Assembly (NCBI RefSeq): GCF_900188375.1
Contig: NZ_FZOO01000003.1
Location: 434,001 to 498,000 of the forward strand
Origin: Geodermatophilus pulveris
GTDB lineage: Bacteria > Actinomycetota > Actinomycetes > Mycobacteriales > Geodermatophilaceae
DNA length: 64,000 nucleotides
Reading direction: 5' to 3'
In this document: positions 38,945 to 64,000 of the stretch, piece after piece
Layout: each line of letters starts with the position of its first letter
How positions within the stretch are numbered: the stretch's first letter is position 1
Notes under the pieces: generated by a model
Told to the model about the DNA's origin: nothing
Seen by the model: only the letters and a program-made list of their open reading frames with translations
The model's database searches: none
Position numbers and translations under genes: made by a program

Positions 38945-39020
38945 TGGTGGCGGAGGCGGGTCTCGATCCCGCGGCCTCCAGGATATGAACCTGGCGAGCT
39001 ACCAACTGCTCCACTCCACT
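38945..39020 (-). tRNA. tRNA-Met (anticodon CAT) carried by element A
   Basis: A 76-base cloverleaf with encoded CCA. The D arm is GAGC-AGTTGGTA-GCTC, the anticodon arm CCAGG-TTCATAT-CCTGG, the variable loop AGGCC and the T arm GCGGG-ATCGAGA-CCCGC. The acceptor strands AGTGGAG and CTCCGCC pair except for A1:C72, with one T:G wobble. The 1:72 mismatch recalls initiator tRNAs, but the three G:C pairs of initiator anticodon stems are absent. The T loop starts with A54 in place of T54. It could be an elongator Met tRNA or an Ile tRNA read after lysidine modification. Confidence 0.85.
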
Positions 39021-39244: not shown

Positions 39245-40501
39245 TCATCCCATCCTCTCGTCGATCGTAACGATTCGCTCGAGTGACGAAATCTCGGGGG
39301 CGACCGGGAAGACGAATGTTCCTTCTTGAACAGCGTCCACGCCGGTGGACGTGAGCCTGTAGTTGAACTTAATGGCGTCTCCTGCGTCCCGCTTGGCGAA
39401 CAGGTAGAAGCTGACTGACTTCTCTTCCCCGTGTGGACGGACGTCGCCAAGGAGCAGTCTGACGATAGGCGGCTTTTCGAAGAAGTTCTCGATGGTTATG
39501 TGTGTGGGTTCGATCTCGACTTCGGTCTCCCCCGTCGGCAACTCGAGTCCGGATGTCAGACCCAGCACACCGCCCCCCTGAGGGGGGAGCGGGAGCCTGT
39601 CCGGCAGGGCTTCGTTTCCGTGCATGGCCTTCAGGAAGCCGGGATCGGATGACCACAAGACGATCTGAACCTGGGGCAGGTTCCGTGTCGTTGGGTTGCG
39701 GACGATGACTTGTAGGTCCTGACCGAATATCGCCAGGCGGCGCAGGTAGAGACCGCGAATTCTTCTTTTGCACTCGGCTAGGTGCAGGCCGACGATGCGT
39801 TCATCACGTTCGTTGAGCGTCCACGCGCGCAGAAGATCGCCACGTGCCTGTATCCACCTAGCGACTGCTTCCGCGCCTGAGTCCAACCGCACGAGGGGCG
39901 GTCCTTCGTAGGACACGTCCAGGTCGAGACGTGGTGTCTCCGTTGCTCGACGAAGCAAGCGCTCCTGCAACTTGTCAAGGTCGCCGTCGTCCGCTGGTGC
40001 CGTGTTGGCTAGCCCCCGAACGAAGATGGTGGCCACTGACATCACGCGCTTGCCGTCACTCCACTCCTTTCGGAGTTGCCAGATTTCGTCGCCCCACTTC
40101 GGCGGTTCCACCAAGACGACGAGTACTTGCTTGCCATCGATGCTGATGTACTGCGAGGACCACGACGGGTGCCGCGTGCTCAAGTACGGGCTGAGCTTGT
40201 TGTCGAGGTCTACCGGATCGATCGGGGTGATGCCGACCAGGTTGTTGGGCTCCGCGCCGACGATCATGTAACCGACGCCGCCGAACTCGTGCTCAGCGTG
40301 TGGGGGGTGCCGGTTGGCCAGGCCGAGGATGCAACGAGCGATGTGGAAGGCGCCGTTCCTGTGGCTCAGGTCCAGCGTGCTCTTCCACTCGACGCTGCGG
40401 CTCTCGTCGTTGGGGTTGGCGTTGACGACGGCCTCGACCAGCCTTCGCACCTCCGCAGGGCTCCGGAGAGCTTGGTCCCTGGGTATGTCGAGCACCAGCA
40501 C
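39245..40501 (-). CDS. Schlafen/AlbA_2-domain protein
   Basis: About residues 25-160 carry an AlbA_2 (Schlafen-type) domain: SRSVEWKSTLDLSHRNGAFH, ARCILGLANR, GGVGYMIVGAEPNNLVGI. In other proteins this fold is linked to nucleic-acid binding or RNase activity. The remaining ~250 residues include helices and a C-terminal beta-rich region (LQVIVRNPTTRNLPQVQIVL, VSFYLFAKRDAG) of unknown type. The GTG at 40501 is used because the open frame further upstream is antisense shadow of the 116-residue gene; a GTG two codons later is equally possible. It is third in a row of minus-strand genes with the 116-residue protein and the GIY-YIG protein. Confidence 0.78.
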   Translation of the reverse strand: MLVLDIPRDQALRSPAEVRRLVEAVVNANPNDESRSVEWKSTLDLSHRNGAFHIARCILGLANRHPPHAEHEFGGVGYMIVGAEPNNLVGITPIDPVDLDNKLSPYLSTRHPSWSSQYISIDGKQVLVVLVEPPKWGDEIWQLRKEWSDGKRVMSVATIFVRGLANTAPADDGDLDKLQERLLRRATETPRLDLDVSYEGPPLVRLDSGAEAVARWIQARGDLLRAWTLNERDERIVGLHLAECKRRIRGLYLRRLAIFGQDLQVIVRNPTTRNLPQVQIVLWSSDPGFLKAMHGNEALPDRLPLPPQGGGVLGLTSGLELPTGETEVEIEPTHITIENFFEKPPIVRLLLGDVRPHGEEKSVSFYLFAKRDAGDAIKFNYRLTSTGVDAVQEGTFVFPVAPEISSLERIVTIDERMG

Positions 40502-40533
40502 CGTCCCGTTCGTTGCGGAACGCCATCGTATGG

Positions 40534-40884
40534 CTACCGAGGTCGGCGCCTGCGGGTGTCCTTGGTCTTGCGCTGCGTCACCTCGTGCGCCGGCTCCGAC
40601 TCGGTCATGGCAAGCAGCGCACTCGATGCGTTGTCGGGGGAGCGGCCGAGGCGCTTGCGGATGTCCTCGGTCGGCTCGATGAGGATCTTGCAGTTCTGCA
40701 GCTTCCACTTCGGGAAGGTCAGCTCGTTGAGGGTGACGTCGTCGAGCTGGCTCAGCTCGTACTCGCGCTCCCGGAAGGCGTTGCGGGCCTCCCACCAGTG
40801 CTGAGCACGCAGGTTGGTGTACTTCTTCGGCTGGTCACCCTTCGACCGGTCCTCGTCCGGCTCCTCCTCGGACGCCTCAGACAC
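40534..40884 (-). CDS. hypothetical 116-residue charged protein
   Basis: An acidic N-terminus (SEASEEEPDEDRSKGDQPKK) is followed by a helical region (HWWEARNAFREREYELSQLD) and a basic Arg/Lys tail. No family is recognised. The GTG start at 40884 is supported by spacing to the upstream GIY-YIG gene (67 bp), and the stop lies 32 bp before the Schlafen/AlbA-type start, consistent with one transcript. It could be a small DNA-associated partner of its neighbours (inference from charge and context only). Confidence 0.6.
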   Translation of the reverse strand: MSEASEEEPDEDRSKGDQPKKYTNLRAQHWWEARNAFREREYELSQLDDVTLNELTFPKWKLQNCKILIEPTEDIRKRLGRSPDNASSALLAMTESEPAHEVTQRKTKDTRRRRPR

Positions 40885-42642: not shown

Positions 42643-43680
42643 CTAGTCCACCTGAATGACGGCGCTGGGGATCGCTCGCAGCGACACCAGGTACTGGTCG
42701 CCGGCCGGAGTGAGCCTCCAGTAGACGGACTTGTCGCTCACGGTCCGCTTCTTTGTCCCGGTCGTGATGATGCCCAGTGCTCGGAGTTGGACGATGATCG
42801 CTCCCCACGCCCTGTCGGAGATCTCTGCGGACTCACGGTGCCAACCCCTACCCCAGTTGCCGTCGGCGTCGCTTTGAATCTCGCGCAGCATGTGGTTGTT
42901 GAACGTCGCCCGCAGAGTGGGCTCGGGCGCTTCATCGATCATGAAAGGGCCCAACACCTCAACGATCTCGTCCCAGGTGTAGGTAAGGTCGCCGTCTTCG
43001 GACTGACTTCCGCCGTAATAGCCGCTGTGGACGAGGTCCAGCTCGATCTTGTCGTCACCGTAGGCGAAGCGCTCATCGATCTGCGTCGGCTCTGTCGTTG
43101 AGTTCTCGGCTTCCTTCTTCTCGAACTGCGCGATCTTTGCCTGCAGCTCTGCGATCTCAGCGCGTGTCTCTGCCGTCATGGCCCGGTCGCCGCGCACCCA
43201 TCCCGGTCGCGGGTTGGTCTTGATCAGGTGCATCAGACCGCGCGTGATCTTGGATCCGAGGTCCTCGGCGTTCTTCCAGTCCTTCGTCATCTTGAGTTGG
43301 ACCTTCTTGCGGAACTCGGCGAGCTTCTCCGCGGCCGCGTCGTTCCGATCGGTCTTGCCCACCGGAATCTTGTCAGGCTCAGCCGGGACGAATCCCATTA
43401 CCGGAACGCCGAGCTCAACTGCGTAGTCATACTCCTTCTCGGTGTAGCTAATCCCTTCCGCGGTCATCGACCCATATCGGCCGCCGACGATGACCAGGTA
43501 GTAGTCGCTCTGCTCGATGACGCCCTTGATGAGCGTCCACTGGTCCGTGTCGCCGGCGGGGAACAGCTCCATGCCAGCAGGCAGACAGTCCATCTCGAGC
43601 AACGCCTGCATGACCTCGCGGCGCTCGTCGACAAGGTCCGAGAACGTGGAGCTGATGAACACCTGATAGCGCCGATCCAT
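42643..43680 (-). CDS. DUF4062 domain protein
   Basis: Residues 1-95 are a DUF4062 domain (MDRRYQVFISSTFSDLVDER, QWTLIKGVIEQSDYYLVIVG, GISYTEKEYDYAVELGVPVM), a TIR-like alpha/beta fold often at the N-terminus of signalling or NLR-like defence proteins. A coiled-coil segment follows (AELQAKIAQFEKKEAENS, about 185-200), then a C-terminal domain with a winged-helix look (AWGAIIVQLRALGIITTG, YWRLTPAGDQYLV). The ATG at 43680 was chosen because VFISSTFSD always sits near the start. No ATPase is fused, unlike in many family members. It is the last large gene of element A on this strand. Confidence 0.8.
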   Translation of the reverse strand: MDRRYQVFISSTFSDLVDERREVMQALLEMDCLPAGMELFPAGDTDQWTLIKGVIEQSDYYLVIVGGRYGSMTAEGISYTEKEYDYAVELGVPVMGFVPAEPDKIPVGKTDRNDAAAEKLAEFRKKVQLKMTKDWKNAEDLGSKITRGLMHLIKTNPRPGWVRGDRAMTAETRAEIAELQAKIAQFEKKEAENSTTEPTQIDERFAYGDDKIELDLVHSGYYGGSQSEDGDLTYTWDEIVEVLGPFMIDEAPEPTLRATFNNHMLREIQSDADGNWGRGWHRESAEISDRAWGAIIVQLRALGIITTGTKKRTVSDKSVYWRLTPAGDQYLVSLRAIPSAVIQVD

Positions 43681-43800
43681 GCTCGCAACGCTATCGAGGC
43701 GGCCGGCCACAGAGTCCTGGAGCAGCACCGGCGTGCACCGGCTCGGAGGACTTGGAGCAAGGCGGCGGCCACACTATGGGCACGCCGGCGGCTGGTTTCG

Positions 43801-50120: not shown

Positions 50121-51992
50121 TTAACTCGAGGCGGAGAGCAGCTTCGTAGCCGCCGGCCAGAGCCGGATCGCGGCGGCGGCAAGCACGCGAGCGCGGTCAG
50201 CGATTTTGCCTTCGTTCCACGCGTCGCTCCTGGCCACCTCGTAGTTGATGACCAGAGACTTCTGCTTCTCGAACTCTGGTTTCTTGACCGCCCAGCCGAG
50301 GTTCGACACGTCACGATTGAATGTGGCCGTTACTAAGGTCAGATTGCCAATTCGATCGACCGTGCGACGGCGCTCGGCGCTGAGGGTCTGCCACTTCAGG
50401 TCCACCTCATCCTTGGGCACGATCGTCCCTAGTGCATCGGCGATCGGCCAATGTGTCTCCCATGACTGAGGCATGATGTGCTCGATCTGAAGGTCGTCGT
50501 AGGTCACAGTGGCAGTGGGCTCGTTCAGATCCTCGCGGCGAAGCCGATCGTCGATCGCCCCAAGCAGAAGGCGTATCCGCATCTGTGCCATGCCGTCGTA
50601 GAACCTGCGGGTCAGAAATGCTTCCTCAATTTCGTCGTCACTTGGCCAGTCCAGCACACCGCCCTGAAGCCCCACGACGACGGCGTCCGCAACGTTCGCC
50701 TCCTTGTCGGCGGCTAGCTTCGCTTCTCGGAGGACGCGAGCGAGGTGCGTGCCGTATCCGCGGGTCTGCCATCCGATATACGCTCGCCGCAGCGCCCAGG
50801 ATTCGACGGCCCGCACAGCTCGAACGTGGTCCTCATGCGGCAAGGCGACGCTGGGTAGGGTCCGCAGCCAAGCTAGGAGCGGAATCGCGGTGGTGATGTC
50901 GAGAGCGCGGATGCGTCGATATGCCGTGACGAGGCGTTGGTCTTCGACTGGAGCCGCATCGTAGATCGATTGGTAAGCCTTGGCAAAGGTGCTAAGTTGC
51001 TCAAGCACCTCTTCGGTCTTTGGGCCGTCGTTGAGATATGTCCGGGCCTCTCGATATAGGTGACCAACGTTCGCCTCGCTGCCAGTGGCTGCAGTAAGCC
51101 AGACCGAAAGGAGGACATCGCGCCGCCCTCGCTGAGCATGACCTCGACCGACCTCCTGCTTCCACCACCGGTCGTCGAACTGCGCCCAGTGCTCGTCGTA
51201 CAGCTTTTCAACATCTTCGTCGGCCAGTTCTCCGCGCAGGAACAGAAGATTCTTGACCAGGTCGATGGCGGATAAAGGCGTTTGGCGACCGTTTAATACC
51301 TCGAAGATTACCTGGGCGTCGTCGTTATCGTCGAGGTCGATCACCACGAGCTTGAAGAGGCTTGACATGGCGTCGGCGAGCGCAACAAGTCGGGCTGGAT
51401 CCACAATACCGTTCGCGTTCGTGGCAAAATCCCGGCTTGCCTGAGAAAAGTACTTCCGCGCTTGCAGGTAGAGGTGATCTGCCTTTCCGTCGTAGGACGG
51501 CAGAGCATCGCCGAGCGCCACGGGCCACAGCTCCCGATCCTTACGACGAGGCCATAGCTTGTAGATCTCTTCGGGTGACTCGATGACGTCGTCAGGGTTG
51601 AAGAGCATCCGTCGCACGGACTTAATACGATCCGAATTAGTCTCGACAAGCACGTCGAGCAATCCACGGACGAGTAGCTGAACCGTGGTGAGACGTTGCT
51701 GGCCGTCGATGACGGACCGGAGCGCCACACCTCCGGTCGCGAACGGCAAGCTCGCACAGACGATCGCACCGAGGAAGTGTGGCGAGACCGTTTGCTCCTT
51801 TGCCTTGAGCTTCGAACCCTCCTCCCCGCCGGTGCGAACGTCTAGGAGGCGCTCGGCCGTGGTCTCGAGATCCTCAAAGAGCAGCCGCCACTGGCCGTCC
51901 AGAGTCCACTCGTAGTCCCGTTGGAAGGTCGGGATGATGTACCGGCGCTCCGGCTTGAGGATGTCCTGCAGTGGATAAGTCTTGGCGTCCAA
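50121..51992 (-). CDS. GmrSD-type DUF262/DUF1524 restriction enzyme
   Basis: The N-terminal DUF262 (GmrS-like NTPase) shows YIIPTFQRDYEW (residues 18-29), VIDGQQRLTT (94-103) and, later, VIFEVLNGRQTPLSAIDLVK. The C-terminal DUF1524 (GmrD-like HNH nuclease) shows IEHIMPQSW (about 503-511) and RIGNLTLVTATFNRDVSN. Single-chain GmrSD enzymes are modification-dependent type IV systems that cut glucosylated or otherwise modified phage DNA using NTP. Length 623 fits. Both motif sets are intact, so it is probably functional. Codon use is less GC-rich than the chromosomal half, which suggests transfer. Confidence 0.88.
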   Translation of the reverse strand: MDAKTYPLQDILKPERRYIIPTFQRDYEWTLDGQWRLLFEDLETTAERLLDVRTGGEEGSKLKAKEQTVSPHFLGAIVCASLPFATGGVALRSVIDGQQRLTTVQLLVRGLLDVLVETNSDRIKSVRRMLFNPDDVIESPEEIYKLWPRRKDRELWPVALGDALPSYDGKADHLYLQARKYFSQASRDFATNANGIVDPARLVALADAMSSLFKLVVIDLDDNDDAQVIFEVLNGRQTPLSAIDLVKNLLFLRGELADEDVEKLYDEHWAQFDDRWWKQEVGRGHAQRGRRDVLLSVWLTAATGSEANVGHLYREARTYLNDGPKTEEVLEQLSTFAKAYQSIYDAAPVEDQRLVTAYRRIRALDITTAIPLLAWLRTLPSVALPHEDHVRAVRAVESWALRRAYIGWQTRGYGTHLARVLREAKLAADKEANVADAVVVGLQGGVLDWPSDDEIEEAFLTRRFYDGMAQMRIRLLLGAIDDRLRREDLNEPTATVTYDDLQIEHIMPQSWETHWPIADALGTIVPKDEVDLKWQTLSAERRRTVDRIGNLTLVTATFNRDVSNLGWAVKKPEFEKQKSLVINYEVARSDAWNEGKIADRARVLAAAAIRLWPAATKLLSASS

Positions 51993-52633: not shown

Positions 52634-53767
52634 TCACTTCGGCCGCTCGTCGACGTTGTCATCAGGAGTCTCGGTGAGCCCGCCAAGCATGGCATCGAGG
52701 GCCCTAGCAATGTCGGCGTCGCGATCGTCGGCGGCGTGTTGGTAAAGGAGAGCTGCGGCGGGGGAGGAGTGGCCGAGTCGGCGCATGAGCTCCTTGGTGG
52801 TCGCGCCGGTGGCAGCGGCCAAGGTGGCGCCGGTGTGGCGGAGTTCGTGTGGCCGGACCGCTGGCAAGCCGACGGCGTTGGCGGCGCGGCGGAAGGTCGC
52901 GTTCCAGTTGCTGCGGGCGAGGTAGCCGCCGGAACTGGTGGCGAACAGGAGGGATTCTGGAGAAGCGGGAACGTGGCTTTTCAGGTGCTCCTCCAGTAGG
53001 GCCGCGATCGCGGCAGGGAGCGTCACGGTGCGATGCCCGGCGTCGGTCTTGGGTTCGCCGATCACCCACCGTCCGCCGACGCGTCGCACCGAGCGCTCGA
53101 CGCGCAACCGGCCACCGAGCAGGACATCGGACCGACGCAGTGCAGTGGCCTCACCGAACCGGAGCCCGCCGAAGGCGAGGACGAGCAGCAGGGCGTAGTA
53201 GCGCTCGGTTCTCCGGTCCTTCCTCAGTTGCTCCGCCAGTTGCAGAGCCTCGGCCGCGGTGAGTGCACGGGACGGCCGGGAGGCCTTTGGCGTGCCGGCG
53301 CCACGCAACCGGCAGGGGTTGGAGGCGATGGCCTCGTCGGCGACCGCGACGTTAAGCATGGCGCGCAGAAGTCGGTAGGCCTGTGCCAGTGCTGTTGGAC
53401 CAGTCGTCCGGCCGGCCTTGGCGTGCCAGGAGCGGACGGCGGCGGGAGTGACCTCGTCGACGGGGACGTCGCCCCAGGCATGAGCGAGGTGGTGACGCCA
53501 TAGGCCCGCGTAGAGGACGCGGGTGCTCTCGCGGAGGTCGTTGCGCGCGAAATAGTCCTCGGCGTAGTCGCCCACCGTCCTTCGGCTGGCGGTCGGAGCC
53601 CGCCAGGTCTTCCGGAGGAGGTCCGTCTGCTGGGTGGCGAGCCAGGCCCAGGCGTCTGCCTTGGTGCTGAAGACCTTGGCGTGGCGCCGACCGTCGGGGC
53701 CGCGGTACCGGGCGCGGAAGCGACCGCTGGGAAGCTCGTCGACGGTGCCGAACGTCCGCTTGGTCAC
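52634..53767 (-). CDS. tyrosine site-specific integrase (second intact copy)
   Basis: Same length (377) as the element A integrase and nearly identical throughout, with the catalytic set Arg (GLRFGEATAL), Lys (GEPKTDAGHRTV), HELRHTG, LGHSS and Tyr (LLYQHA). Differences lie mainly in the N-terminal arm-binding part and around residues 255-275, which may change the sites recognised. The excisionase gene is upstream on the same strand. Unlike the other integrases it has no tRNA-Gly copy next to its stop; transposase debris sits there instead. It may belong to an element whose left end was destroyed, or it may use another site. Confidence 0.94.
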   Translation of the reverse strand: MTKRTFGTVDELPSGRFRARYRGPDGRRHAKVFSTKADAWAWLATQQTDLLRKTWRAPTASRRTVGDYAEDYFARNDLRESTRVLYAGLWRHHLAHAWGDVPVDEVTPAAVRSWHAKAGRTTGPTALAQAYRLLRAMLNVAVADEAIASNPCRLRGAGTPKASRPSRALTAAEALQLAEQLRKDRRTERYYALLLVLAFGGLRFGEATALRRSDVLLGGRLRVERSVRRVGGRWVIGEPKTDAGHRTVTLPAAIAALLEEHLKSHVPASPESLLFATSSGGYLARSNWNATFRRAANAVGLPAVRPHELRHTGATLAAATGATTKELMRRLGHSSPAAALLYQHAADDRDADIARALDAMLGGLTETPDDNVDERPK

Positions 53768-53808: not shown

Positions 53809-54024
53809 TCAGCGCTGGCTGTGGACTCGGCCGGCGTCCACAAGGGCGTCTAGCGCCGAGCGCTCGAGGCGCACATACTTGCCGACTTTGACGTAGGCGA
53901 TGCGGCGCTCGGTGATGAGCCGGCGGATGAACCGCTCGCCGATGCCGAGGTACTCGCCGGCCTGCGCGACGGTCAGCAGTGGGCTGCGGTCGAGAGCTTC
54001 ATCCTGCGCCGCTCGCCTCGTCAT
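53809..54024 (-). CDS. excisionase / MerR-like winged-helix protein (second copy)
   Basis: The 71-residue protein is close to the one at 35190 (LLTVAQAGEYLGIGERFIRR, LITERRIAYVKVGKYVRLE). Start and length agree between the two copies. The integrase follows 41 bp downstream, the same spacing as in element A. Three 11-bp units lie 14 bp upstream of the start codon. Confidence 0.88.
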   Translation of the reverse strand: MTRRAAQDEALDRSPLLTVAQAGEYLGIGERFIRRLITERRIAYVKVGKYVRLERSALDALVDAGRVHSQR

Positions 54025-54037
54025 GTCCTCGAGCCTC

Positions 54038-54070
54038 GCCGACGTCCTCCGGTGCGCCTCCGGTCGTCCT
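54038..54070. repeat. three 11-bp iteron-like units upstream of the second excisionase gene
   Basis: GCCGACGTCCT, CCGGTGCGCCT and CCGGTCGTCCT in tandem, related to the five units at 35420-35474 and at the same distance (14 bp) from the excisionase start. Confidence 0.7.
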
Positions 54071-54136
54071 TCCTGTCCGCCGTCCCGTCGCGTGATCCTC
54101 TGATCCGACGATTGCGGGTCCTGCTGTGGACCGGGC

Positions 54137-54643
54137 TCAGTACACGTGGGGAGCGCCGGTCAGGCGGGCGCGCCGCCGGTAGGCCTGCAGCACCATCTCC
54201 AGTTGCTGCGCGAGCGCGGACAGGTCGCGGTCGTAGACGCGCCCGTCGTTGAGTTGGTGGGCGAGCTCCTCGAGAAGCCTTGGCCAGTCCCGCCGCGTCG
54301 GGGCTAGGGGGGTACGGACCTGCACCAGCCTCTCGACCACCTGGACCGGTGTTCGGTCCGACGTCATGGCCCGCGTCTGTTCCCAGGCTCGATGCCGGCA
54401 GGTAGCCGAACACCACTTGGGGATCGGTCCACGGCTCTTCGGGCTGATCGGCCCTCCGCACCACCCACAGGTCTGCGCTGCGGCCCGTCGCTCCCGGCCG
54501 GCCACCTCACCGTCGGGTGCCCCTGCTGCCTTGGCGGCCGGCGTCTGCTCCGCCCGCTGGCGCCGCCGGGACTCCTGCTTCCGCCGTTGCCGCTCACGCT
54601 CCTGCTGTCGCGCTCGGTATCCGGGACTGCCGCTGCTCTCCAT
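54137..54643 (-). CDS. hypothetical protein with a Cys4-type zinc-binding motif
   Basis: The protein starts with a strongly basic region (ARQQERERQRRKQESRRRQR), followed by CGWCGGPISPKSRG and KWCSATCRHRAWE. The C-x2-C...C-x3-C spacing suggests a small zinc ribbon similar to those in actinobacterial mobile-element proteins. The C-terminal ~70 residues are helical (DWPRLLEELAHQLNDGRVYD, LSALAQQLEMVLQAYRRRAR). The ATG at 54643 is one possible start; the frame is open for 14 more codons. It lies upstream of the excisionase and integrase on the same strand and may be part of the element's control region. Function unknown. Confidence 0.65.
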   Translation of the reverse strand: MESSGSPGYRARQQERERQRRKQESRRRQRAEQTPAAKAAGAPDGEVAGRERRAAAQTCGWCGGPISPKSRGPIPKWCSATCRHRAWEQTRAMTSDRTPVQVVERLVQVRTPLAPTRRDWPRLLEELAHQLNDGRVYDRDLSALAQQLEMVLQAYRRRARLTGAPHVY

Positions 54644-54931
54644 GCCAATGACGCTGCAGATGAGCCTCCGGTAACTCGTCACCACGAATTCCGGGACCGC
54701 AGGTGCAAGAGGTGTAATCCTTTGCGATCTTGAATCGCAGCCTCTGGCGATGAGAATGCTCCTGTCGTCCGGCGACGTCGTGCGTCACTGGTGCGGGAGA
54801 GCCCGCAGAGGTGTTTGGCGCGGGGTCCTCGGGTGCCCCTGATTGCTGCCGTGAGCGCGCGGGTCTGTGTCCTTGACTTGAGGGCCCTCCGGGCGACGCC
54901 TTGCAGTCCTCGACGTGAGGAGGGGTCGGCG
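54644..54931. other. left flank of the IS110 transposase, possible bridge-RNA region
   Basis: No protein gene is supported. IS110-family elements carry a structured non-coding RNA in the end upstream of the transposase, or downstream in the IS1111 subgroup. This stretch has GC-rich, hairpin-forming segments around 54790-54930, but I could not draw a definite bridge-RNA fold or the exact IS boundary by eye. Confidence 0.35.
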
Positions 54932-56164
54932 GTGGAGGTTCTGTACGAGCGGGTTGCCGGGCTGGACATCGGCAAGAAGACGCTGACGGTCTGCGTGCGC
55001 ACGCCCGGGGCTCGGGGTGGTCGGCGGGCGGAGACGCGGACGTTTTCGACGATGACCCGGTCGCTTCAGGTGATGCGGGACTGGCTGCTCGACCGCGGCG
55101 TGACGATCGCGGCGATGGAGTCGACCTCGACCTATTGGAAGGGCGCGTTCTACTGCCTCGAGGAAGTGATGGAGGTCTGGCTGGTCAACGCTGCGCACAT
55201 CAAGTCGATCTCGCGGCGCAAGACCGACGTCAAGGACGCGGAGTGGATCGCCCAGCCGCTGGAGTGCGGGCTGCTGCGGCCGTCGTTCGTGCCGCCGCCG
55301 GACATTCGCCGGTTGCGGATGCTGACCCGCTACCGGGTGCAGCTGATGGCCGACCGGACGCGGGAGATCACCCGGCTGGAGCTGATGCTGGAGGACGCCT
55401 CAGTGAAGCTCTCCTCGGTGGCGGCGAGCCTGACCAGCGTCTCCGCACGGGCCATGCTCGGCGCGCTGATCGCCGGGGAGAGCGATCCGCGGGTGCTGGC
55501 GGAGCTGGCCAAGGGCAAGATGCGCCGGAAGATCCCGGCGCTGACCGAGGCTTTGACCGGGCACTTCGACGCCCAACACGCGCAGCTCGCGCGCAGCATG
55601 CTGGCCCGCATCGAGGCGATTGAGACCGCCTTGGCCGAGCTGAACACGGTGATCGCCGCTGCCTTCGAGCCCTGGGCGCATCAGCTGGAGCTGCTGCAGA
55701 CGATCCCGGGAGTGGGGGAGAAGGTCGCCCAGGTGATCATCGCCGAGACCGGCGCGGACATGTCTCGGTTTCCGACGCCGGAGCACCTGGCGTCCTGGGC
55801 CGGGGTTGCCCCGGGGACGCGGGAGTCGGCGGGTAAGCGGTATCCGGTTCGGCCGCCGCACGGCAACAAGTGGCTGACCGCGATGCTGGTCGAGGCCGCC
55901 GGGTCGGTCGGGCGGATGAAGGGCGCCAACTACCTGGCCGCTCAGCACGCCCGGCTCACCAGCCGCCGCGGCATGGCTCGGGCCCAGCTGGCGGTCGGCC
56001 ATTCGATCCTGGTCTCGGCCTACTGGATGTTGACTCGGGACGAGCCCTATCAGGACCTCGGGCCCGAGTGGCTGGCCCGCCGCAACGACGAGGCACACGC
56101 TCGCCGGCTGGTGGCGCAGCTCGAACGCCTTGGCCACACCGTGGTCCTCGACCCGGCCGCCTGA
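54932..56164 (+). CDS. IS110-family transposase (intact)
   Basis: The N-terminal RuvC-like DEDD domain shows AGLDIGKKTLTVCVRTPG (Asp), AAMESTSTYWKGAFYCL (Glu), and SRRKTDVKDAEWIAQPL (two Asp). The C-terminal Tnp2 domain shows LLQTIPGVGEKVAQVIIAET, LASWAGVAPGTRESAGKR with the conserved Ser, and RMKGANYLAAQHARLTSRRG. The 410-residue length is normal. GTG at 54932 follows a GAGGAGG site and precedes the conserved start of the domain. This recombinase acts with a guide (bridge) RNA in characterised IS110 members. It is the only transposase in the window that looks complete. Confidence 0.9.
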   Translation: MEVLYERVAGLDIGKKTLTVCVRTPGARGGRRAETRTFSTMTRSLQVMRDWLLDRGVTIAAMESTSTYWKGAFYCLEEVMEVWLVNAAHIKSISRRKTDVKDAEWIAQPLECGLLRPSFVPPPDIRRLRMLTRYRVQLMADRTREITRLELMLEDASVKLSSVAASLTSVSARAMLGALIAGESDPRVLAELAKGKMRRKIPALTEALTGHFDAQHAQLARSMLARIEAIETALAELNTVIAAAFEPWAHQLELLQTIPGVGEKVAQVIIAETGADMSRFPTPEHLASWAGVAPGTRESAGKRYPVRPPHGNKWLTAMLVEAAGSVGRMKGANYLAAQHARLTSRRGMARAQLAVGHSILVSAYWMLTRDEPYQDLGPEWLARRNDEAHARRLVAQLERLGHTVVLDPAA

Positions 56165-56311
56165 AGCGCAACTGCAGAACTACTGCGGACGGGCTTCGCC
56201 CGCCCCGCGCTGACGCGCGCCTGCAACACCGGTATTCACGGGTCTATGGCACTTACGACCTCGTGCATGGCTAGCCGCGGGCCGTCGTTGACCTGTCCAG
56301 GGTCAGTTCGA
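56165..56311. other. right flank of the IS110 transposase
   Basis: It holds a short palindrome, GGACGGGCTTCGCCCGCCCC (near 56188), and no gene. It is the likely 3' end of the IS110 element. Confidence 0.4.
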
Positions 56312-56900
56312 TCACGCGGCAGTGCCGGCCGGGAGCGCTCCCGGCGGGCGGTGAAGCTGGTCAGGCCGTGGGGCTTGTTCCTGGCTGGAGACAAGGCTGG
56401 CGACCGCGGGCAGGATGGTGTCGAGGTGTTCGCGCCGGCCGAGGTGTCGGCATAGGGTCCGCCAGTTCTTCAGGTGGCTGATGCCGTGCTCGACGCCGAT
56501 CCGCTGCGCCGCGTGAGCCCGGCGTTCGGCCTCGTGCGCCGCGGCAAGCGCGGGCGGGACCGGAGCTGGTTCTTCCGCCGGGCCGGCCGCGGAGTGAGCA
56601 CCGCGCCGGCGGTCTGCGTGCTCAGATATTGGTAGCCGGCGTCGACCCACAGGGTGACGCCCGGAGCGAGGGCGAGCAGCTCGACCAGGCCGGCCTGGCG
56701 CACCTGGGTCAGATCGTGCGTAGATCCCGGGCGGGTGCGCCCGCACAACAGCAGCCGCCCGGCGGGTCGGTGATCACGAGTGCCTTGACGGTGTTGGCGC
56801 GGGCCTTGCCCGAGACGAACCGCTGCCGAAGGGCCTTGTGAGCCGCCGGACGGCGCACCCGCACCTCGTTGGCATCGAGCAGGCCGAGTGGTGTGCCCCT
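56312..56900 (-). mobile_element. IS5-type DDE transposase pseudogene
   Basis: Pieces in three frames reconstruct one protein: LGLLDANEVRVRRPAAHKAL, RQRFVSGKARANTVKALVIT, GRTRPGSTHDLTQVRQAGLV, ELLALAPGVTLWVDAGYQYL (the second catalytic Asp), and AQRIGVEHGISHLKNWRTLC with the Glu. The pattern matches the DDE_4 transposases of IS5-like elements. At least two frameshifts occur and the N-terminal part is cut by the IS3 orfA that starts at 56959. Confidence 0.8.
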
Positions 56901-56958
56901 TGTTTCGTGGAGTCCGATTGTTGGATCTTCGTGCCACCTGACCCCTTGAGGAGGGGCT

Positions 56959-57225
56959 GTGGGACGACGTGGGTATCCGCCGGAGTTTCGGCGCAAGGTG
57001 CTGGATCTGGTGGCTTCGGGACGCAAGGTGTCGAGGTGGCCTTCGACCTGGAGATCAGCGACCAGACGATCTACTCCTGGCTGCGGCAGGACCGGATCGA
57101 CCGAGGCCTTGAGCCGGGGCTGACGACGCCCGAGCGGGCGGAGCTTCGTGCCGCCCAGCGCAGGATCGCCGAGCTGGAGGCCGAGCTGGCCATCCACCGG
57201 CGGGCCAGCGAGCTGCTGGGCGCGA
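56959..57225 (+). mobile_element. IS3-family OrfA with frameshift
   Basis: A GTG preceded by GAGGAGGGG starts GRRGYPPEFRRKVLDLVASG. After ~25 codons the frame shifts to VAFDLEISDQTIYSWLRQDR, TTPERAELRAAQRRIAELEA and ELAIHRRASELL. The helix-turn-helix (ISDQTIYSW) and leucine zipper are typical. OrfB is missing: right after RRASELL the sequence changes to another gene on the opposite strand. It is a truncated and frameshifted element. Confidence 0.8.
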
Positions 57226-57228
57226 GCG

Positions 57229-57345
57229 GTGCTTCTCCAGGAAGCCTTCCAATCTAAGTTCATCAAACTCCCGGATGGCGGCGAGTACGTCTTCGCTCGT
57301 CGCGTCAGGCTGTGGCGCGGCAGGGACCGTAACGGGCGCACGAGG
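57229..57345 (-). pseudogene. N-terminal fragment resembling a ScoMcrA-like (type IV restriction) head domain
   Basis: Ending at the IS3 junction, the minus strand reads DATSEDVLAAIREFDELRLE and GFLEKH. This resembles the first helix of ScoMcrA-like N-terminal head domains (VLxAIxEFDxLGxxxFLxKY). Everything downstream has been lost at the IS3 insertion. Start codon and upstream part are not certain. If right, the island once carried an additional modification-dependent restriction enzyme. Confidence 0.4.
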
Positions 57346-57623
57346 ATATGCAGAGATTGCACACCTCTCGGCGAGACCTCCTACGGGTACGTTCGGGCCG
57401 AAGTCAGAGCGAGGCCAGCCACGGACCTGCTCGCCGTCCCCCGGCGGCATCGTGCCAGGCCCGCCGACCGGCAGTCGGGCCACGGTCCTCAGCATTGGGG
57501 GACCCTTCGGGTCGCACTTGATCTCGCGGGGTTCTCGGGGCCGCCGCTGCGCGAAGAGAGCCCCGGACTAGCGCCAGCCGGGGCCCTCTTCGGCACACGT
57601 GCCCAGTGATCAGGAGGCACGCG
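57346..57623. other. spacer with terminator of the restriction gene
   Basis: No gene is seen. A strong hairpin at 57553-57591 follows the end of the SacI-like gene on the minus strand. Confidence 0.4.
57553..57591 (-). terminator. terminator of the SacI-like restriction gene
   Basis: Arms GAAGAGAGCCCCGG and CCGGGGCCCTCTTC pair over 14 bp with one A:C mismatch, with an 11-base loop. It lies 33 bp beyond the stop of the minus-strand restriction gene. Confidence 0.65.
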
Positions 57624-58742
57624 TTAAAAGAGACCTTGCTGCTCGTTCTCCAACGGCCCGGGTGAGTTGGTGCCCGCCTCAGCAGCGGCCTCGGCAGCTT
57701 CCTGCCACGAGGCAACCGTTTTGTCACTCGATTCAACCTCAACCAAGCGCTGTAGGCCTGCCGAGGCGAACTCGGTCAACGCTTGATGGATTGGTTGCGC
57801 GCCCCAGGCGAGGGCATCGACAAGAAGGTCAGAGATTGATTCGAAGATGTTGAGGGAGACGCTATGGCTCAGAGCCGCCCAGTTTCGGAGCGCCGCCATA
57901 TCAAGCATCGAGTGCTGAGGCGCGTCGACAACCACGAATGCTCGTTCAATGCCCGAAGTGGCGCAAGCCTGAACGAATGTCTTCACATCGGACTCGGTCA
58001 CGGCCTTAGCGCGCGCCTCAACCGCTAGGACGACCTTCTCGTCGAGGTAAACCTCAACGTCTCCGGGGACGTCACGAGAGGGATCGTTCAAGCGGCGTGA
58101 GCGGACGTCATCGTGGACCAGGTCGATGCAAGCAGCTGCCAGCGCTTGCGTCTTCCATGGACGCTCGGTTTTGTCGGCCATGAAGCCTGCGACAGCGTGG
58201 AGCATAGCTCGCAGCTCGAGCTGTCCAGAGAAGGACATTGTGAGGTTTGCGCTAGGCGTGGCAGATAGCCGAAAGCGTATGAAGGACGCGAGGGCCTTCA
58301 AGGCCTGGTTTTCACCGAATGTCTCCAGCAAAACGAGACTCCCCTTGAGGGCGTCCAGTGTAGCCGGATTTCGCACCCGATCGATCGTGGACATGTGGTC
58401 GTATCGGAAGAATGGCTGATTGTTCATGGGCTCTCGCCCTGTGTTGCGTATGGAGAAGCCGTACTCTCTAGCCGCGGGCACTAGCACGTTGTGGCATAGC
58501 GTTCGCAGGCTGTAAGCTCGCTCGCTGTACGCCTCTTTGATAGACAGCGGATCCACTCGTCTGTCAGTGGCGCGAGCCAGGAGGGCTGTGCCGAGCGCAG
58601 GGGTATAGGTCTTGTAAGGCGCCGACTCCATCTTGGCAGCCAGCATCGACCAGTACTCAGGCAGTGGCTCCTCGGACACGGCGAGGGCCACGGCTTCTGC
58701 CAACCTGACCGTGGCCCTCGCGTAGTCGAGTGTGATTCCCAA
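57624..58742 (-). CDS. SacI-like type II restriction endonuclease
   Basis: A 372-residue protein directly downstream of a C5 cytosine methyltransferase. Residues ~80-160 (AYSLRTLCHNVLVPAAREYG, NTGREPMNNQPFFRYDHMST, ALKALASFIRFRL) match the pattern of the SacI family. A PD-(D/E)xK-like centre is seen at DVPGDVEVYLDEKVVLAVEA followed by RAK (about 225-248: Asp, then E-x-R-x-K). SacI cuts GAGCTC; whether this enzyme has the same site cannot be read. ATG at 58742 is separated from the methyltransferase stop by 44 bp. The family call is from motif memory and context. Confidence 0.65.
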   Translation of the reverse strand: MGITLDYARATVRLAEAVALAVSEEPLPEYWSMLAAKMESAPYKTYTPALGTALLARATDRRVDPLSIKEAYSERAYSLRTLCHNVLVPAAREYGFSIRNTGREPMNNQPFFRYDHMSTIDRVRNPATLDALKGSLVLLETFGENQALKALASFIRFRLSATPSANLTMSFSGQLELRAMLHAVAGFMADKTERPWKTQALAAACIDLVHDDVRSRRLNDPSRDVPGDVEVYLDEKVVLAVEARAKAVTESDVKTFVQACATSGIERAFVVVDAPQHSMLDMAALRNWAALSHSVSLNIFESISDLLVDALAWGAQPIHQALTEFASAGLQRLVEVESSDKTVASWQEAAEAAAEAGTNSPGPLENEQQGLF

Positions 58743-58786
58743 AGTTCCTCCCTCACCGAGTTGCTGGTTCGGCGAGAGTAGGAAGC

Positions 58787-59959
58787 TCAGGGCATCAGAG
58801 AGAGTTGCTCGGGGCCCGCATCATCGCGTGTTGCATCAGGACCAGCCAGGTGCCCCAACTGCAACATGAGGGCACGGACGACGACCTTCCCAAGCTCAAC
58901 TGGTACGGCGTTGCCCAGCTGACGCTGAATGTCCGAGCGGCTCCCCTCGAGCTTGTAGTCCTCCGGAAAGGTCATTAGCCGAAGCATCTCCGGAACGCGA
59001 AGGCGCCTCGCCCGCGGGTTTCCGTCCGAATCCTCCACGTTCTCCCAATGAAAGGGGCCAACGTATGGTCCCGGTTGCGCCTGAAGCGTCGTAGAAGGGC
59101 GGTCCGGATCCAATTTTAGAAGAAATGTCCAATAACGACTTCTCCACTTGAAGACGTTTCGTCCACCGTACCTGTCGGTGTGCCACAAGTAGTTCTGCCC
59201 GGGAGGAACTTCTGCTGCTAGCTCCGCGAATTCTCCAGTCAGCATCTCCCCGGGTTCCAAGACACCCGGCAGAAGGTCGCCGATCGCTTCTTTGGCTGTC
59301 ACATAGGGAATCTTCGTCGGGTCCACGACGGAGTGCCGCTCGCTCCAACCAGAGTGAGTCCCCTCCGGAAAGCGGAACTTCTTCCCGTCCCGACGACCGA
59401 CAATAAACACGCGCCGACGGAGCTGAGGAACACCGTAGTCCGCCGCGATCAGGACCTTCCACTGGGGGTTGTAGTTCAAATCACGCATTGCTGAAATGAG
59501 TCTATCGAACTGGGCTGCGTGGGTTCGGTAGGTGAGCCCCTGGACGTTCTCAAGGATGAACGCCTCGGGTTGGGCCTCCGTCACGACGCGTACGTATTCA
59601 TCGAGAAGTGACGCGTTTGGGTCCCGACTTTCGCGCTTCTCCTCGATCCAAAATCCAGACTTGCTGAAAGGGGTACACGGCGGGCCGCCAATCACCAGGG
59701 CCGGCTCTCCCTTCGACAGGCCGCCTGCCTCGAGTAGCTCCTCGGTCGGTGTCAGCCGAATATCGCGGGTGATGGTCGGGACGTTGAAGTTTGCCCGCAA
59801 GCTTGATAAGGCCAGTTCGTCGTAGTCGGTTGCGACCGCAACCGAGAGTGGGCCTTTCCTGCCATCTTGGTCAAGTGGCGGCTCGGCGCACCGCTCTACA
59901 GCAATGTCAAGCCCTCCGGCACCTGAGAATAGGCTGATTACAGGCAGGCGGACATCCAT
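58787..59959 (-). CDS. DNA cytosine-5 methyltransferase
   Basis: All key motifs are present: I SLFSGAGGLD (9-18), IV GGPPCTPFSKSG with catalytic Cys95, VI LENVQGL (about 136-142), VIII YGVPQLRRRVFIVGRR, and IX/X RVPEMLRLMTFPEDY and RQLGNAVPVELGKVVV. Length 390 is normal. ATG at 59959 starts just before motif I; the longer open frame upstream is not used. It methylates DNA at the site cut by the adjacent SacI-like enzyme, with a Vsr gene upstream on the other strand to repair the T:G mismatches that arise after deamination. Confidence 0.93.
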   Translation of the reverse strand: MDVRLPVISLFSGAGGLDIAVERCAEPPLDQDGRKGPLSVAVATDYDELALSSLRANFNVPTITRDIRLTPTEELLEAGGLSKGEPALVIGGPPCTPFSKSGFWIEEKRESRDPNASLLDEYVRVVTEAQPEAFILENVQGLTYRTHAAQFDRLISAMRDLNYNPQWKVLIAADYGVPQLRRRVFIVGRRDGKKFRFPEGTHSGWSERHSVVDPTKIPYVTAKEAIGDLLPGVLEPGEMLTGEFAELAAEVPPGQNYLWHTDRYGGRNVFKWRSRYWTFLLKLDPDRPSTTLQAQPGPYVGPFHWENVEDSDGNPRARRLRVPEMLRLMTFPEDYKLEGSRSDIQRQLGNAVPVELGKVVVRALMLQLGHLAGPDATRDDAGPEQLSLMP

Positions 59960-60203
59960 GCATTTGCTCCTCAACCAAGATCGCGCCGTGTGCACCGCTG
60001 TGAGTGCTCGGGATCCGTGCGACGGCACGGTACCGGGGGCGCCTGCTCCGGCTGGAGAACCCGCGCTCGTCTCGAGGGTCGCGTCGGAGCGCTAGGTGCT
60101 GAGACCAGCCGATACGGGTCATGAGGGGCAGGCTAGCGACGGGCAGTGACAACCTTCGGGACTCAACCTGATGTCGCGCTGCCGGAGACGTCCGTGCGGT
60201 TCC

Positions 60204-60216
60204 TATGCTGGTGACG
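60204..60216 (+). promoter_or_regulatory. TATGCT -10 element for leaderless vsr
   Basis: TATGCT at 60204-60209 ends 6 bp before the vsr GTG start and no ribosome site is present, suggesting a leaderless mRNA. Confidence 0.4.
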
Positions 60217-60614
60217 TGGACGCGCAGGCGCCCCGCCCAGCGACGGCCGCCAACCCCAGTCGAGACACGAAGCCTGAGCTGGCGGTTCGGTCGCAGGTAC
60301 ATCGCAAGGGCTTGCGCTTCTACGTGGGGCGTCAGCCGCTCCCCGGTCTACGTCGAACCGCTGATTTGGTATTCCCGCGCCGACGGGTGGCAGTCTTCGT
60401 GGATGGGTGCTTCTGGCACGGCTGCCCACTGCACCTTCGGATGCCGAGGGCCAACCCGGACTACTGGCCCGCCAAGATTGCCCGCAATATGGAGCGGGAC
60501 CGGGAGACCAACGAGAAGCTGACCGAGGCTGGGTGGCGAGTCCTGCGCTTCTGGGAGCACGAGGACCCGGACGACGTCGCCCGTCGGATCGAGCAGGCGG
60601 TCCGTCAGGCGTGA
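60216..60614 (+). CDS. vsr: Vsr, very short patch repair endonuclease
   Basis: Vsr nicks T:G mismatches next to C5-methylated sites. The 132-residue protein carries NPSRDTKPELAVRSQVHRKG, TADLVFPRRRVAVFVDGCFW with Asp50, and HGCPLH with the metal-coordinating His (VDGCFWHGC), NPDYWPAKIARN and EAGWRVLRFWEHE. All active-site positions agree with the E. coli enzyme (Asp51, His64 region, His69). The GTG at 60216 is in frame and consistent with the leaderless -10 site. It is divergent from the methyltransferase gene. Confidence 0.92.
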   Translation: MDAQAPRPATAANPSRDTKPELAVRSQVHRKGLRFYVGRQPLPGLRRTADLVFPRRRVAVFVDGCFWHGCPLHLRMPRANPDYWPAKIARNMERDRETNEKLTEAGWRVLRFWEHEDPDDVARRIEQAVRQA

Positions 60615-60889
60615 GCGTGAGCCGCGACGGCTTCCAAGGCACGGTCCTTGAGTTCATTGAGCGGGCAGTCGCCAAGGACCTCCTCGGCCGAGTCGCAGCA
60701 CCGCTCGCCCCACTGGTCCTCACGCCAGGCGACCCAGCCGAGGTCGGAGTCCAGGTCTAGGGAGAGCACGACATTTGCGCCGTCGGCAGGGAGCTGGACG
60801 CCGAAGTAGCCACCGGCGAGGGAGACCACCGTGCCGCCGGTCGCATCGGCGGCCTTGTCGATCTCCTGCAAGTACGCAGGGTACTCCAC
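60605..60889 (-). CDS. hypothetical 94-residue acidic protein
   Basis: The chain (EYPAYLQEIDKAADATGGTV, VVLSLDLDSDLGWVAWREDQ, ERCCDSAEEVLGDCPLNELK) is acidic and has a beta-alpha look. The GTG at 60889 starts it. Its 3' end overlaps the end of vsr by 10 bp on the other strand. No family is recognised. Size and charge would suit a DNA-mimic or immunity-type protein, but there is no direct evidence. Confidence 0.55.
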   Translation of the reverse strand: MEYPAYLQEIDKAADATGGTVVSLAGGYFGVQLPADGANVVLSLDLDSDLGWVAWREDQWGERCCDSAEEVLGDCPLNELKDRALEAVAAHAHA

Positions 60890-61655
60890 GGGGGCGTCTC
60901 CTCATAGTCGGCCGTTGACGGCATCCTCCCTCAAGACTCCGGCAACACTGCTAATCCCACCGCGAGTGCCGAGACTGCCGATGGCCCCACCTGCGGAGGT
61001 GCCCTCGGAGATAAGCTGAGGGCCGGAACGCAAGGAGGCCCCGCCCTCCGAAGTAGAGGACGGGACGTTCCGTCGAGTGAACGAGTAGGGCGGTCCGTCA
61101 GGCCCGGCGGGAGGCCCTTTGGCGGGTCTCTTCGCGGCCAGCGGCGGCACCTGAGGCGGCGGCTTCGTAGGCGGCCTCGGCTTGGGCGGCGTCCGGAGGG
61201 GTGCCGGTGCCCTTGCCCTTCGGGTAGCAGGCACGGGCGTCGGCAACACCGTCGGCCCAGCCGAGGCGGCGGGGCTTGCCTTCCTGCCCGGCGGCGAGAC
61301 GGCAGTCCGCGGCGGGCCTGTCAGGTGCCGAGTCGCCGCAGCTGGCCTGCAGCAACAGCTCGGAACGCACGGGGATGCCGTCGGCGCAGTCCGACGCCGA
61401 ACGCGTCCGGCGCAAACAGCGCCTGGCCGAACTACTCCAGATCAGCCGGCGGTCGCGGCAATCGGGACCTACGTCATTGCGCTCCGGAACCGCATCGCGG
61501 CGGCTGTTCGAGAACGGGCGCGGCGGCTGATGTCGTCGCATGCCGCGCAGCGTCGCCGCTGGCCCCGAGTCCCCCCAGACACGCCAGATTGGGTGATGCG
61601 GTGCCTGGTGCCCCAGCGAGGCATATGTTTGCGCCGACTTGGGGGGAAATGACAA
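60890..61655. other. poorly coded stretch with uncertain small frames
   Basis: No secure gene. A proline-rich minus frame (60902-61249) and an alanine-rich minus frame (61098-61370) are open, and a short plus frame around 61371 (SDAERVRRKQRLAELLQISR) has a helical look. All lack family signals and clear ribosome sites. It probably contains remnants and the promoter of the 726-residue gene, with GGGGGG at 61641-61646 as ribosome site. Confidence 0.4.
61098..61370 (-). CDS. uncertain small hypothetical protein
   Basis: A GTG-started 90-codon frame (RSELLLQASCGDSAPDRPAA, RRLGWADGVADARACYPKGK, AAQAEAAYEAAASGAAAGRE). Three spaced cysteines and an Ala-rich tail are seen. It might be real because its first half is not obviously biased, but there is no ribosome site and no homologue is recognised. 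Confidence 0.25.
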   Translation of the reverse strand: MRSELLLQASCGDSAPDRPAADCRLAAGQEGKPRRLGWADGVADARACYPKGKGTGTPPDAAQAEAAYEAAASGAAAGREETRQRASRRA

Positions 61656-63836
61656 GTGCCGGACGACAGGCAGTGGAGCGACGCGCTCTGCGATTGGTTC
61701 TACCGACCTGAGCTGGCTGGGCAGCCGGCCTACCTGTTCTGCGATCCGTCCGTGCCCAGCATGATCGCTGAGGCCAATGGCTGGGCGCTGCCAGACCCCT
61801 TGGCGGACTTGCTTTCGGCCGTTAGGTCGCGCGTCGCCGCCAGCGAGCCTCTGGGACCTTGGCTCCGGCAGGCGCATCGCTGGCGCCGTGAAGGCAGAGT
61901 CGGCAACCCTCCGTGGGTAGCCGTGCTCGCCGTCACGGTCCTCGCCGCCTCAGGCGGAGGCCGCGACGACGGGCTCCTGATACACGAGAGGGCGTACTAC
62001 AAGCCTCTGCGGCGGCTCTTTGGCCTGCCGCAGGGAGCGCAACCTCCGGACTTCGACAATGACGTCCGCATGCTGTGGACGTTCCTGCGGGAATGGCTCG
62101 ACGACGATCTAGGCGGCTCGCGAGGGCTAAGCACAGCAAGCGCTCCCAAGCACTTGTGCAACGTGGGATGGGCGCTGTCGCAGACGGTTCTGACACCTGC
62201 TGAGCGGTCCCGCCTCCCCGAGTTCTTCCGACTCATCGGCGCCCTCCCGGGCGAGGACATCGCTCCGGCAGTACTGCTCGCCAGCTATCAGCGTTGGGCG
62301 TCGCGTCGGGGAGGCTTAGGGGCTTCTCCTCCGGAGCTGGACCGGAGTTCTGCCATCCGCGAGGTGTTGGCCGCTGTCCTGCATCAGTCGCTGCTCGCCT
62401 GGGATGGCCGCCCGCGAGACGAGCGCGGACGGGTCACGCTGCCCCTCCTGCTCGGCTACTACAGCGCCCGCGGCGAGATGAGGCTGGCGTCCCGAGCGGT
62501 GCCCGGCCTCGGTCACCGGCGTCTCGCCATCGGGGACCAGGAAATCACGCTCGGAGCTCCGGATGAGCAGATCGTCGTCCCCGGGGACCCGGCCAGTGCA
62601 CTCGAAGGTCAGCCGATACGGGGAATGCTTGCTGCTTCGGAACAGGACCCAGCCGCAGGCGCTCGAGAGATCGAGATGCGGCTTCCCAGCACCGACCTGC
62701 ATGTGCTTGCATCCAGCGCCGAGCTAGCCATGTGGGTTGAGGTCGGTGCCGCGTCATTTGATCACGAGCATGTCGTCATCGTCCGAGAACGTGTCGCGCG
62801 CGAAGCGGAGCGGGCCATGGCCGCCCTTGGCGGCAGCGCCACGCCTCTGACCCGGATCCGGCTGCCCGCGGGCTGGTACGCCTATCACCGCTTCGAGCCA
62901 ACTCGGCTGGCCAACGTCGACCCCAAGCTCGGAGGGCTGGTGCCGAGCCGGGCGGAACTCGCGCAGCTCAGCGGGGGGCTCCCCATCGAGCTGCGGAACC
63001 GGATCTGGCTGACCGCCGGGCCCCCCGATGTAGCTCTGCCGGACCTGGTTGAACGGCAGGAAAGCCAGGTTCTGCGGCTGGACGGCAACGAGCTGCCGTG
63101 GCCAGCGGACAGCAGGTTGCGGCTGCGAGAACACGGTCTGCGTGCCGGCCTCCACGAACTGATCGTGGCTGGCCGAACGATGCGCTTCACCCTGGTCGAT
63201 GAGGCAGTGGACCAGAGTGGACACGGCGACCTCGAACTCACCGTGGACCGGCGGGCTATGGGGCACAGATTTCCCGGCCGCTCTCGGATGTCCGACGATG
63301 GCAACCGGCTCGGAGACAGGTCGACGGCGGCTGTCCCTGTCGAAGTCACCCTTTGCGGCGCGGAACTGACTACCGCGGACGGCGGCAAGGATGTTGCACC
63401 CCTGCCGAGGCACTGGCACCTGCGCATCGGCGGGCTGTATTTTGTGCTCGGCGGTCCCGGTCAGGCTGCCCGATTGCAACCGAGTGCACCGAGCTGGCTC
63501 ATGGACACAGAGCCACGGCTCTATCCGCGTGATGCTGACCTGGACACTGCGTTGTCCGGACTCCCATTCAGCCCGCGCTGGCTGTTGCACGTGCCGCCGC
63601 GGCAACCTCCGACCGTGCTGGACATCGCGGGGGTCTCGCCGGCCCCCAGCCAAGCGCCGGGGAGGCCCACGCTGGAAACCGGGCCCTCGGTGTGGCAGCT
63701 GGCTCTCAAGCATCTCGATTCTGTCGCCGCCCCGGGGCTCCGCGCCCAGTCGGCATGGCGAGCGTGGATCCACGAGGCCGCTGCGTTGTGCGGGACCCAG
63801 CCGCCGCCTGGCGTCATGGTTGGTCGGTGCCAGTGA
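61656..63836 (+). CDS. large protein of unknown function, first gene of a defence-island unit
   Basis: A 726-residue soluble protein. GTG at 61656 follows GGGGGGAAATGACAA. The N-terminal ~250 residues are helical (QWSDALCDWFYRPELAGQPA, WVAVLAVTVLAASGGG, FDNDVRMLWTFLREWLDDDL, AIREVLAAVLHQSLLAWDGR). The middle and C-terminal parts are beta-rich, with repeated Ig/jelly-roll-like strands (RLAIGDQEITLGAPDEQIVV, RIRLPAGWYAYHRFEPTRLA, RNRIWLTAGPPDVALPDLVE, MRFTLVDEAVDQSGHG). No Walker, nuclease or helicase motif is visible. The stop overlaps the next start (GTGA). Position beside a restriction-modification unit suggests a phage-defence role; this is inference and no named family is assigned. Confidence 0.7.
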   Translation: MPDDRQWSDALCDWFYRPELAGQPAYLFCDPSVPSMIAEANGWALPDPLADLLSAVRSRVAASEPLGPWLRQAHRWRREGRVGNPPWVAVLAVTVLAASGGGRDDGLLIHERAYYKPLRRLFGLPQGAQPPDFDNDVRMLWTFLREWLDDDLGGSRGLSTASAPKHLCNVGWALSQTVLTPAERSRLPEFFRLIGALPGEDIAPAVLLASYQRWASRRGGLGASPPELDRSSAIREVLAAVLHQSLLAWDGRPRDERGRVTLPLLLGYYSARGEMRLASRAVPGLGHRRLAIGDQEITLGAPDEQIVVPGDPASALEGQPIRGMLAASEQDPAAGAREIEMRLPSTDLHVLASSAELAMWVEVGAASFDHEHVVIVRERVAREAERAMAALGGSATPLTRIRLPAGWYAYHRFEPTRLANVDPKLGGLVPSRAELAQLSGGLPIELRNRIWLTAGPPDVALPDLVERQESQVLRLDGNELPWPADSRLRLREHGLRAGLHELIVAGRTMRFTLVDEAVDQSGHGDLELTVDRRAMGHRFPGRSRMSDDGNRLGDRSTAAVPVEVTLCGAELTTADGGKDVAPLPRHWHLRIGGLYFVLGGPGQAARLQPSAPSWLMDTEPRLYPRDADLDTALSGLPFSPRWLLHVPPRQPPTVLDIAGVSPAPSQAPGRPTLETGPSVWQLALKHLDSVAAPGLRAQSAWRAWIHEAAALCGTQPPPGVMVGRCQ

Positions 63837-64000
63837 CCGTCGACCATGACCTCCTGCTGCGCTGGTGCTCAGAACGGTCGTCGGGCTCGCTGACGGCCTT
63901 TCGCGAGGCCCATGACTGGCTGCGTGAAGAGCGCGGCGCAGGAGAGCCGGCTGGTCCGGATCCCCGATCCGAGCAGGATCGATGGATGTGGTCGTTGCAG
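63833..64000 (+). CDS. start of the partner gene (cut by the window end)
   Basis: A GTG overlapping the previous stop begins TVDHDLLLRWCSERSSGSLT with AFREAHDWLREERGAGEPAG and RWMWSLQ. Only 56 residues are visible: a helical N-terminus that could be the DNA- or partner-binding end of a larger protein. The GTGA overlap shows it is co-translated with the 726-residue protein. Confidence 0.6.
   Translation, partial: MTVDHDLLLRWCSERSSGSLTAFREAHDWLREERGAGEPAGPDPRSEQDRWMWSLQ

Follow-up and report, generated by a model that had tools for sequence, protein, structure and literature searches.

At the right end of a 64,000-nucleotide window (G000:C12:434001-498000), two overlapping genes, the second cut by the window edge, lie beside a set of restriction genes. 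A first-pass annotation had described them as an unrecognised two-gene unit and a candidate new defence system, and the question raised by this locus is whether they are new or belong to a system already catalogued. The contig runs a further 12.8 kb, and the sequence was extended rightwards on it as L002 (L002 position + 59999 = window position), which completes the second gene and reveals a third:

61656-63836, + strand: druF, first gene of the proposed Druantia type IV operon; 726 aa, GTG start
63833-64000, + strand: 5' part of druL; first 56 codons, then the window end
L002:3834-4934 (window-equivalent 63833-64933), + strand: complete druL; 366 aa
L002:4931-10333, + strand: druE, third gene, past the window edge; 1800 aa, DEAD/H helicase

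The 726-aa open frame is present as it had been described, and so is its coupling to the second gene, the druF stop overlapping the GTG start of druL at 63833 (GTGA). Both genes of the two-gene unit are thus real, but the operon has a third one, the 1800-aa helicase gene past the window. The end of druL overlaps the druE start in the same manner (TTGA), and the three consecutive co-directional genes, all with frames open at full length, are translationally coupled as judged from these overlaps. Chance ORFs are ruled out by the near-full-length homology of all three products. No Rfam RNA was found in 54000-64000; a sigma-70-like promoter pattern, uninformative for a high-GC genome, was not found either.

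Assignment to Druantia type IV

The top PADLOC matches of the three genes are DruF4, DruL4 and DruE4, each covering nearly the whole protein: DruF4 (PDLC00053) matches residues 5-652 of the druF product (E=6.5e-76), DruL4 (PDLC00057) residues 4-334 of the 366-aa druL product (E=2.8e-60), and DruE4 (PDLC00051) residues 12-1798 of the 1800-aa product, with 1997 bits vs 1639 for DruE2 and 389 for DruE3. Druantia type IV was defined by the PADLOC authors as DruE, DruF and DruL, without DruM and DruG (PMC8565338), and the locus holds all three positive elements: a YprA-family DExH helicase of the Druantia branch (DruE), a DruF beside it and a DruL between the two. We are confident that the pair represents druF and druL at the head of an anti-phage operon of Druantia type IV, in which three genes are translationally coupled; this copy would presumably act in phage defence.

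A genuinely new, unrelated two-gene defence system has next to no probability: DruF and DruL find no match in Pfam, NCBIfam or the PDB and neither has a recognisable domain, but their DruF4 and DruL4 matches are strong and near full-length, and the expected third gene, druE, follows directly. Since Pfam and NCBIfam are blank for both proteins, a motif reader would see nothing. The pair does sit in a defence operon within a defence island, and its two products do belong together, in one operon; it is its unrecognised status that is lost, the DruF4, DruL4 and DruE4 profiles placing it in Druantia type IV. A profile search leading to a named helicase operon, here druF-druL-druE, was the very outcome that the annotation had set against its own proposal. 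The title 'candidate new system' is to be dropped: going by its sequence, the locus is a new, intact-looking example of a catalogued system, a result by which a mistaken 'new system' falls away and Druantia type IV gains a high-GC example.

The association recurs elsewhere. A survey of 396 genomes from the same phylum gave five with DruL; a full-length DruE4 match above 1300 bits occurs in the same five and in no other, so that the two sets coincide (n=5 each). Nine further loci were located in GTDB genomes by DruE peptide patterns, and the order DruF, DruL, DruE is found again in same-phylum loci of other families, in cyanobacterial loci and in Bacillota loci. Profile alignment of DruL with its relatives gives 99.2% probability. 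In one relative (L012) DruF and DruL are fused in a single 1006-aa protein, and long DruF2 profiles match DruL with their C-terminal third (1.1e-10); because of this fusion and this match, DruL is best read as a detached C-terminal part of DruF. Searches of viral contigs and plasmids returned no close relatives of DruF or DruL, only one weak plasmid match.

The helical N-terminus and beta-rich remainder attributed to the first protein agree with the secondary structure of an AlphaFold2 model of DruF, but that model is untrustworthy (mean pLDDT 35), too poor to search for a fold. For DruL a Chamaesiphon relative was modelled (pLDDT 57); no PDB fold matched this model significantly, and weak winged-helix matches at its N-terminus were not relied on. 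These low-confidence predictions, together with the missing recognisable domains in DruF and DruL, weigh against the preferred explanation.

The DruE helicase and its likely action

In Pfam, DruE matches DEAD and Helicase_C and, below threshold, the MrfA zinc module (MZB). DruE keeps the motifs GTGSGKTE, DELH and QRVGRAGR and the MZB cysteines, all of which vary little or not at all among 11 sequences. Its relatives of solved structure, as judged by sequence, are 9wae (2.9e-167), entered only as 'Helicase', 9tu7 (1.5e-52), whose deposited name is DEAD/DEAH box helicase and which we take to be DruE III, and YprA/MrfA (6znp). From its sequence DruE is classed as a DExH helicase of the YprA family with a zinc module of the MrfA type towards its C-terminus. 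Past this module the 11 sequences hold isolated invariant residues only and no conserved catalytic nuclease motif, which fits the 'inactivated Vsr' domain in which DruE of types I and II ends (PMC12458937). In type III, DruE has an active PLD nuclease and works as a helicase-nuclease on late replication intermediates that contain ssDNA, and DruH is probably the sensor (PMC13192584). That DruE of the type II/IV branch, unlike that of type III, has no evident catalytic nuclease motif is a further point against the preferred explanation.

No experiments on any Druantia type IV system were found in the literature searched, and the mechanism proposed here is borrowed from type III, from which we infer the substrate of DruE and the roles of DruF and DruL. 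By analogy, DruE would most likely load on ssDNA-containing phage replication intermediates and unwind or hold them, while DruF and DruL may constitute a sensor, targeting or specificity module that switches DruE on, the part that DruH plays in type III.

Druantia types and the gene after druE

The three genes that type IV (PADLOC DruE4+DruF4+DruL4; PMC8565338) requires are all present, in the same order and direction and with overlaps, and there is no DruG gene. The locus differs in having a C5 methylase, a SacI-like endonuclease and Vsr directly upstream and in its divergent alleles, DruF being about 20% and DruE 34-41% identical to the aligned relatives. With type II (DruM+DruF+DruG+DruE) it has homologous DruF and DruE and a C5 methylase close by; unlike in type II, DruG is absent, DruF is split into DruF and DruL, and DruE scores higher as DruE4 than as DruE2. 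DruL fills all the coding space between druF and druE, leaving no DruG there, and one DruG profile, run against the genome, gave no match, although it matched nothing anywhere and the DruG of L021 matches a different one. Type III (DruH-DruE; PMC13192584, PMC13316683) has the same YprA-family helicase core in DruE, but no DruH was matched among the neighbours scanned here, no C-terminal PLD nuclease is recognised in DruE, and the DruE3 score lies far below that of DruE4. Lastly, the Druantia systems with DruK (PADLOC DruK families) are DruE-centred as well, and six relatives have, immediately behind druE, a gene for a PD-(D/E)XK nuclease that matches PADLOC DruK; we had considered this gene to be new and dropped the idea after that match. 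DruK is absent from this locus, and an unrelated predicted nuclease gene lies downstream instead:

L002:10658-11437 (window-equivalent 70657-71436): 259-aa predicted PD-(D/E)XK nuclease, 324 bp after druE

The 259-aa protein belongs to no Pfam, NCBIfam or PADLOC family. Its own family has invariant E145, D178 and E189-x-K191 and a GQxxDY motif, a PD-(D/E)XK signature, and homologues occur in about 10 of the 396 phylum genomes, often inside larger frames. None of the nine other carriers has DruL, so that a role as a conserved Druantia component is unsupported and the protein may at most be a local substitute for DruK. The variable nuclease gene after druE suggests an exchangeable cutting subunit. 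A separate arrangement was seen at L074 (G237:C2:224000-243999), where DruK and a type II restriction enzyme come after a 2370-aa DruE2 helicase; a C5 methylase lies upstream of the helicase, and an obvious DruF is missing.

The defence island and its C5 methylase

Profile matches confirm the neighbours that had been named from the letters, a SacI-like restriction-modification pair, Vsr and GmrSD:

50121-51992, - strand: GmrSD type IV restriction enzyme; both Pfam halves, in PADLOC also HEC-06
52634-53767, - strand: tyrosine integrase, adjoining GmrSD
57624-58742, - strand: SacI-like type II restriction endonuclease; PF09566 2e-27, PADLOC REase_II 1.4e-46
58787-60028, - strand: C5-cytosine DNA methyltransferase, partner of the SacI-like endonuclease; PF00145 4.4e-57
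60171-60614, + strand: Vsr mismatch endonuclease; TIGR00632 4.5e-36, PF03852 5.2e-16

GmrSD adjoins the integrase, which suggests present or past mobility of the island. An IS110-family transposase (54791-56164, +) and, after it, apparent broken fragments of IS transposases (56312-57362) separate the integrase from the SacI-like genes. Other possible island genes encode a weak Schlafen AlbA_2-domain protein (39245-40795, -) adjoining tRNA-Met (38945-39020) and a DUF4062 protein (42643-43728, -; 6.9e-29). A small 94-aa protein convergent with vsr (60605-60889, -) has only a weak UPF0167 match, and the roughly 770 bp from there to druF hold no convincing gene.

The integrase, the IS110 transposase, the transposase fragments and the absence of druK could be taken to mean that the operon is a decayed or incomplete Druantia remnant. 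We consider this very improbable: the three frames are open at full length, their starts are coupled, the helicase motifs are intact and the matches extend to full profiles, all of which argues against decay.

The C5 methylase is the sole PF00145 protein found by a genome-wide search. It stands on the strand opposite to druF, 1.6 kb upstream of that gene and 44 bp from the SacI-like endonuclease, which is clearly the methylase's first partner in this window. At eight or nine of some 12 independent DruE loci of the branch, this genome excluded, a C5 methylase is found no more than about 5 kb upstream or downstream of the operon. For this count L016 (a 5.2-kb contig) was set aside and the near-identical L017 and L019 were counted once; the nine matches are L010, L011, L012, L013, L014, L017/L019, L018 and L021, or eight if L017/L019 is strictly one. 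The methylases near the relatives' DruE loci are often co-directional and adjacent. Among other long YprA-family helicase loci of the phylum, 1/19 has one, and this single positive, in G237, turned out to be DruE2+DruK. The enrichment (9/12 vs 1/19, Fisher 1e-4) is a rough figure, from a small sample that includes a type II locus with DruG (L021) and some loci cut by contig ends. The Druantia-linked methylases are polyphyletic, with seven changes on the tree and several lineages, and background methylases score as high as they do, or higher, with the PADLOC DruM profiles. We rejected the upstream methylase as a DruM by profile on both grounds.

Nevertheless, it may be too strong to say that type IV lacks DruM, and the methylase is a possible, putative self-marking enzyme for the Druantia operon. 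An extended Druantia, in which the methylase, shared with the SacI-like enzyme, is a DruM equivalent that marks self and the 259-aa PD-(D/E)XK protein replaces DruK as the nuclease, would accommodate the enrichment near branch DruE loci, the lack of any other C5 methylase in the genome, the DruK gene directly after druE in six relatives and the nuclease-like invariant residues of the 259-aa family. We regard it as unlikely, given that the methylase runs opposite to the operon and forms a pair with its own endonuclease, that the linked methylases are not one clade and do not separate from background by DruM profile, and that the 259-aa gene stands 324 bp past druE with its other carriers free of DruL. 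The broader proposition, that type IV recurrently recruits unrelated C5 methylases as a self mark, with the methylase of the SacI-like system shared and an unrelated PD-(D/E)XK protein in place of DruK as the instance here, is likewise unlikely. How self is told from phage in this least-studied branch of Druantia is worth following, and the recurrence of C5 methylases of different lineages nearby makes methylation-based self-recognition testable. In Anaerospora (L017:15921-18949) and in a Selenomonadales MAG (L019), a C5 methylase and Vsr come after druE, in Anaerospora together with a modification-dependent endonuclease of AspBHI/Mrr type; here too an R-M-like cassette is joined to Druantia.
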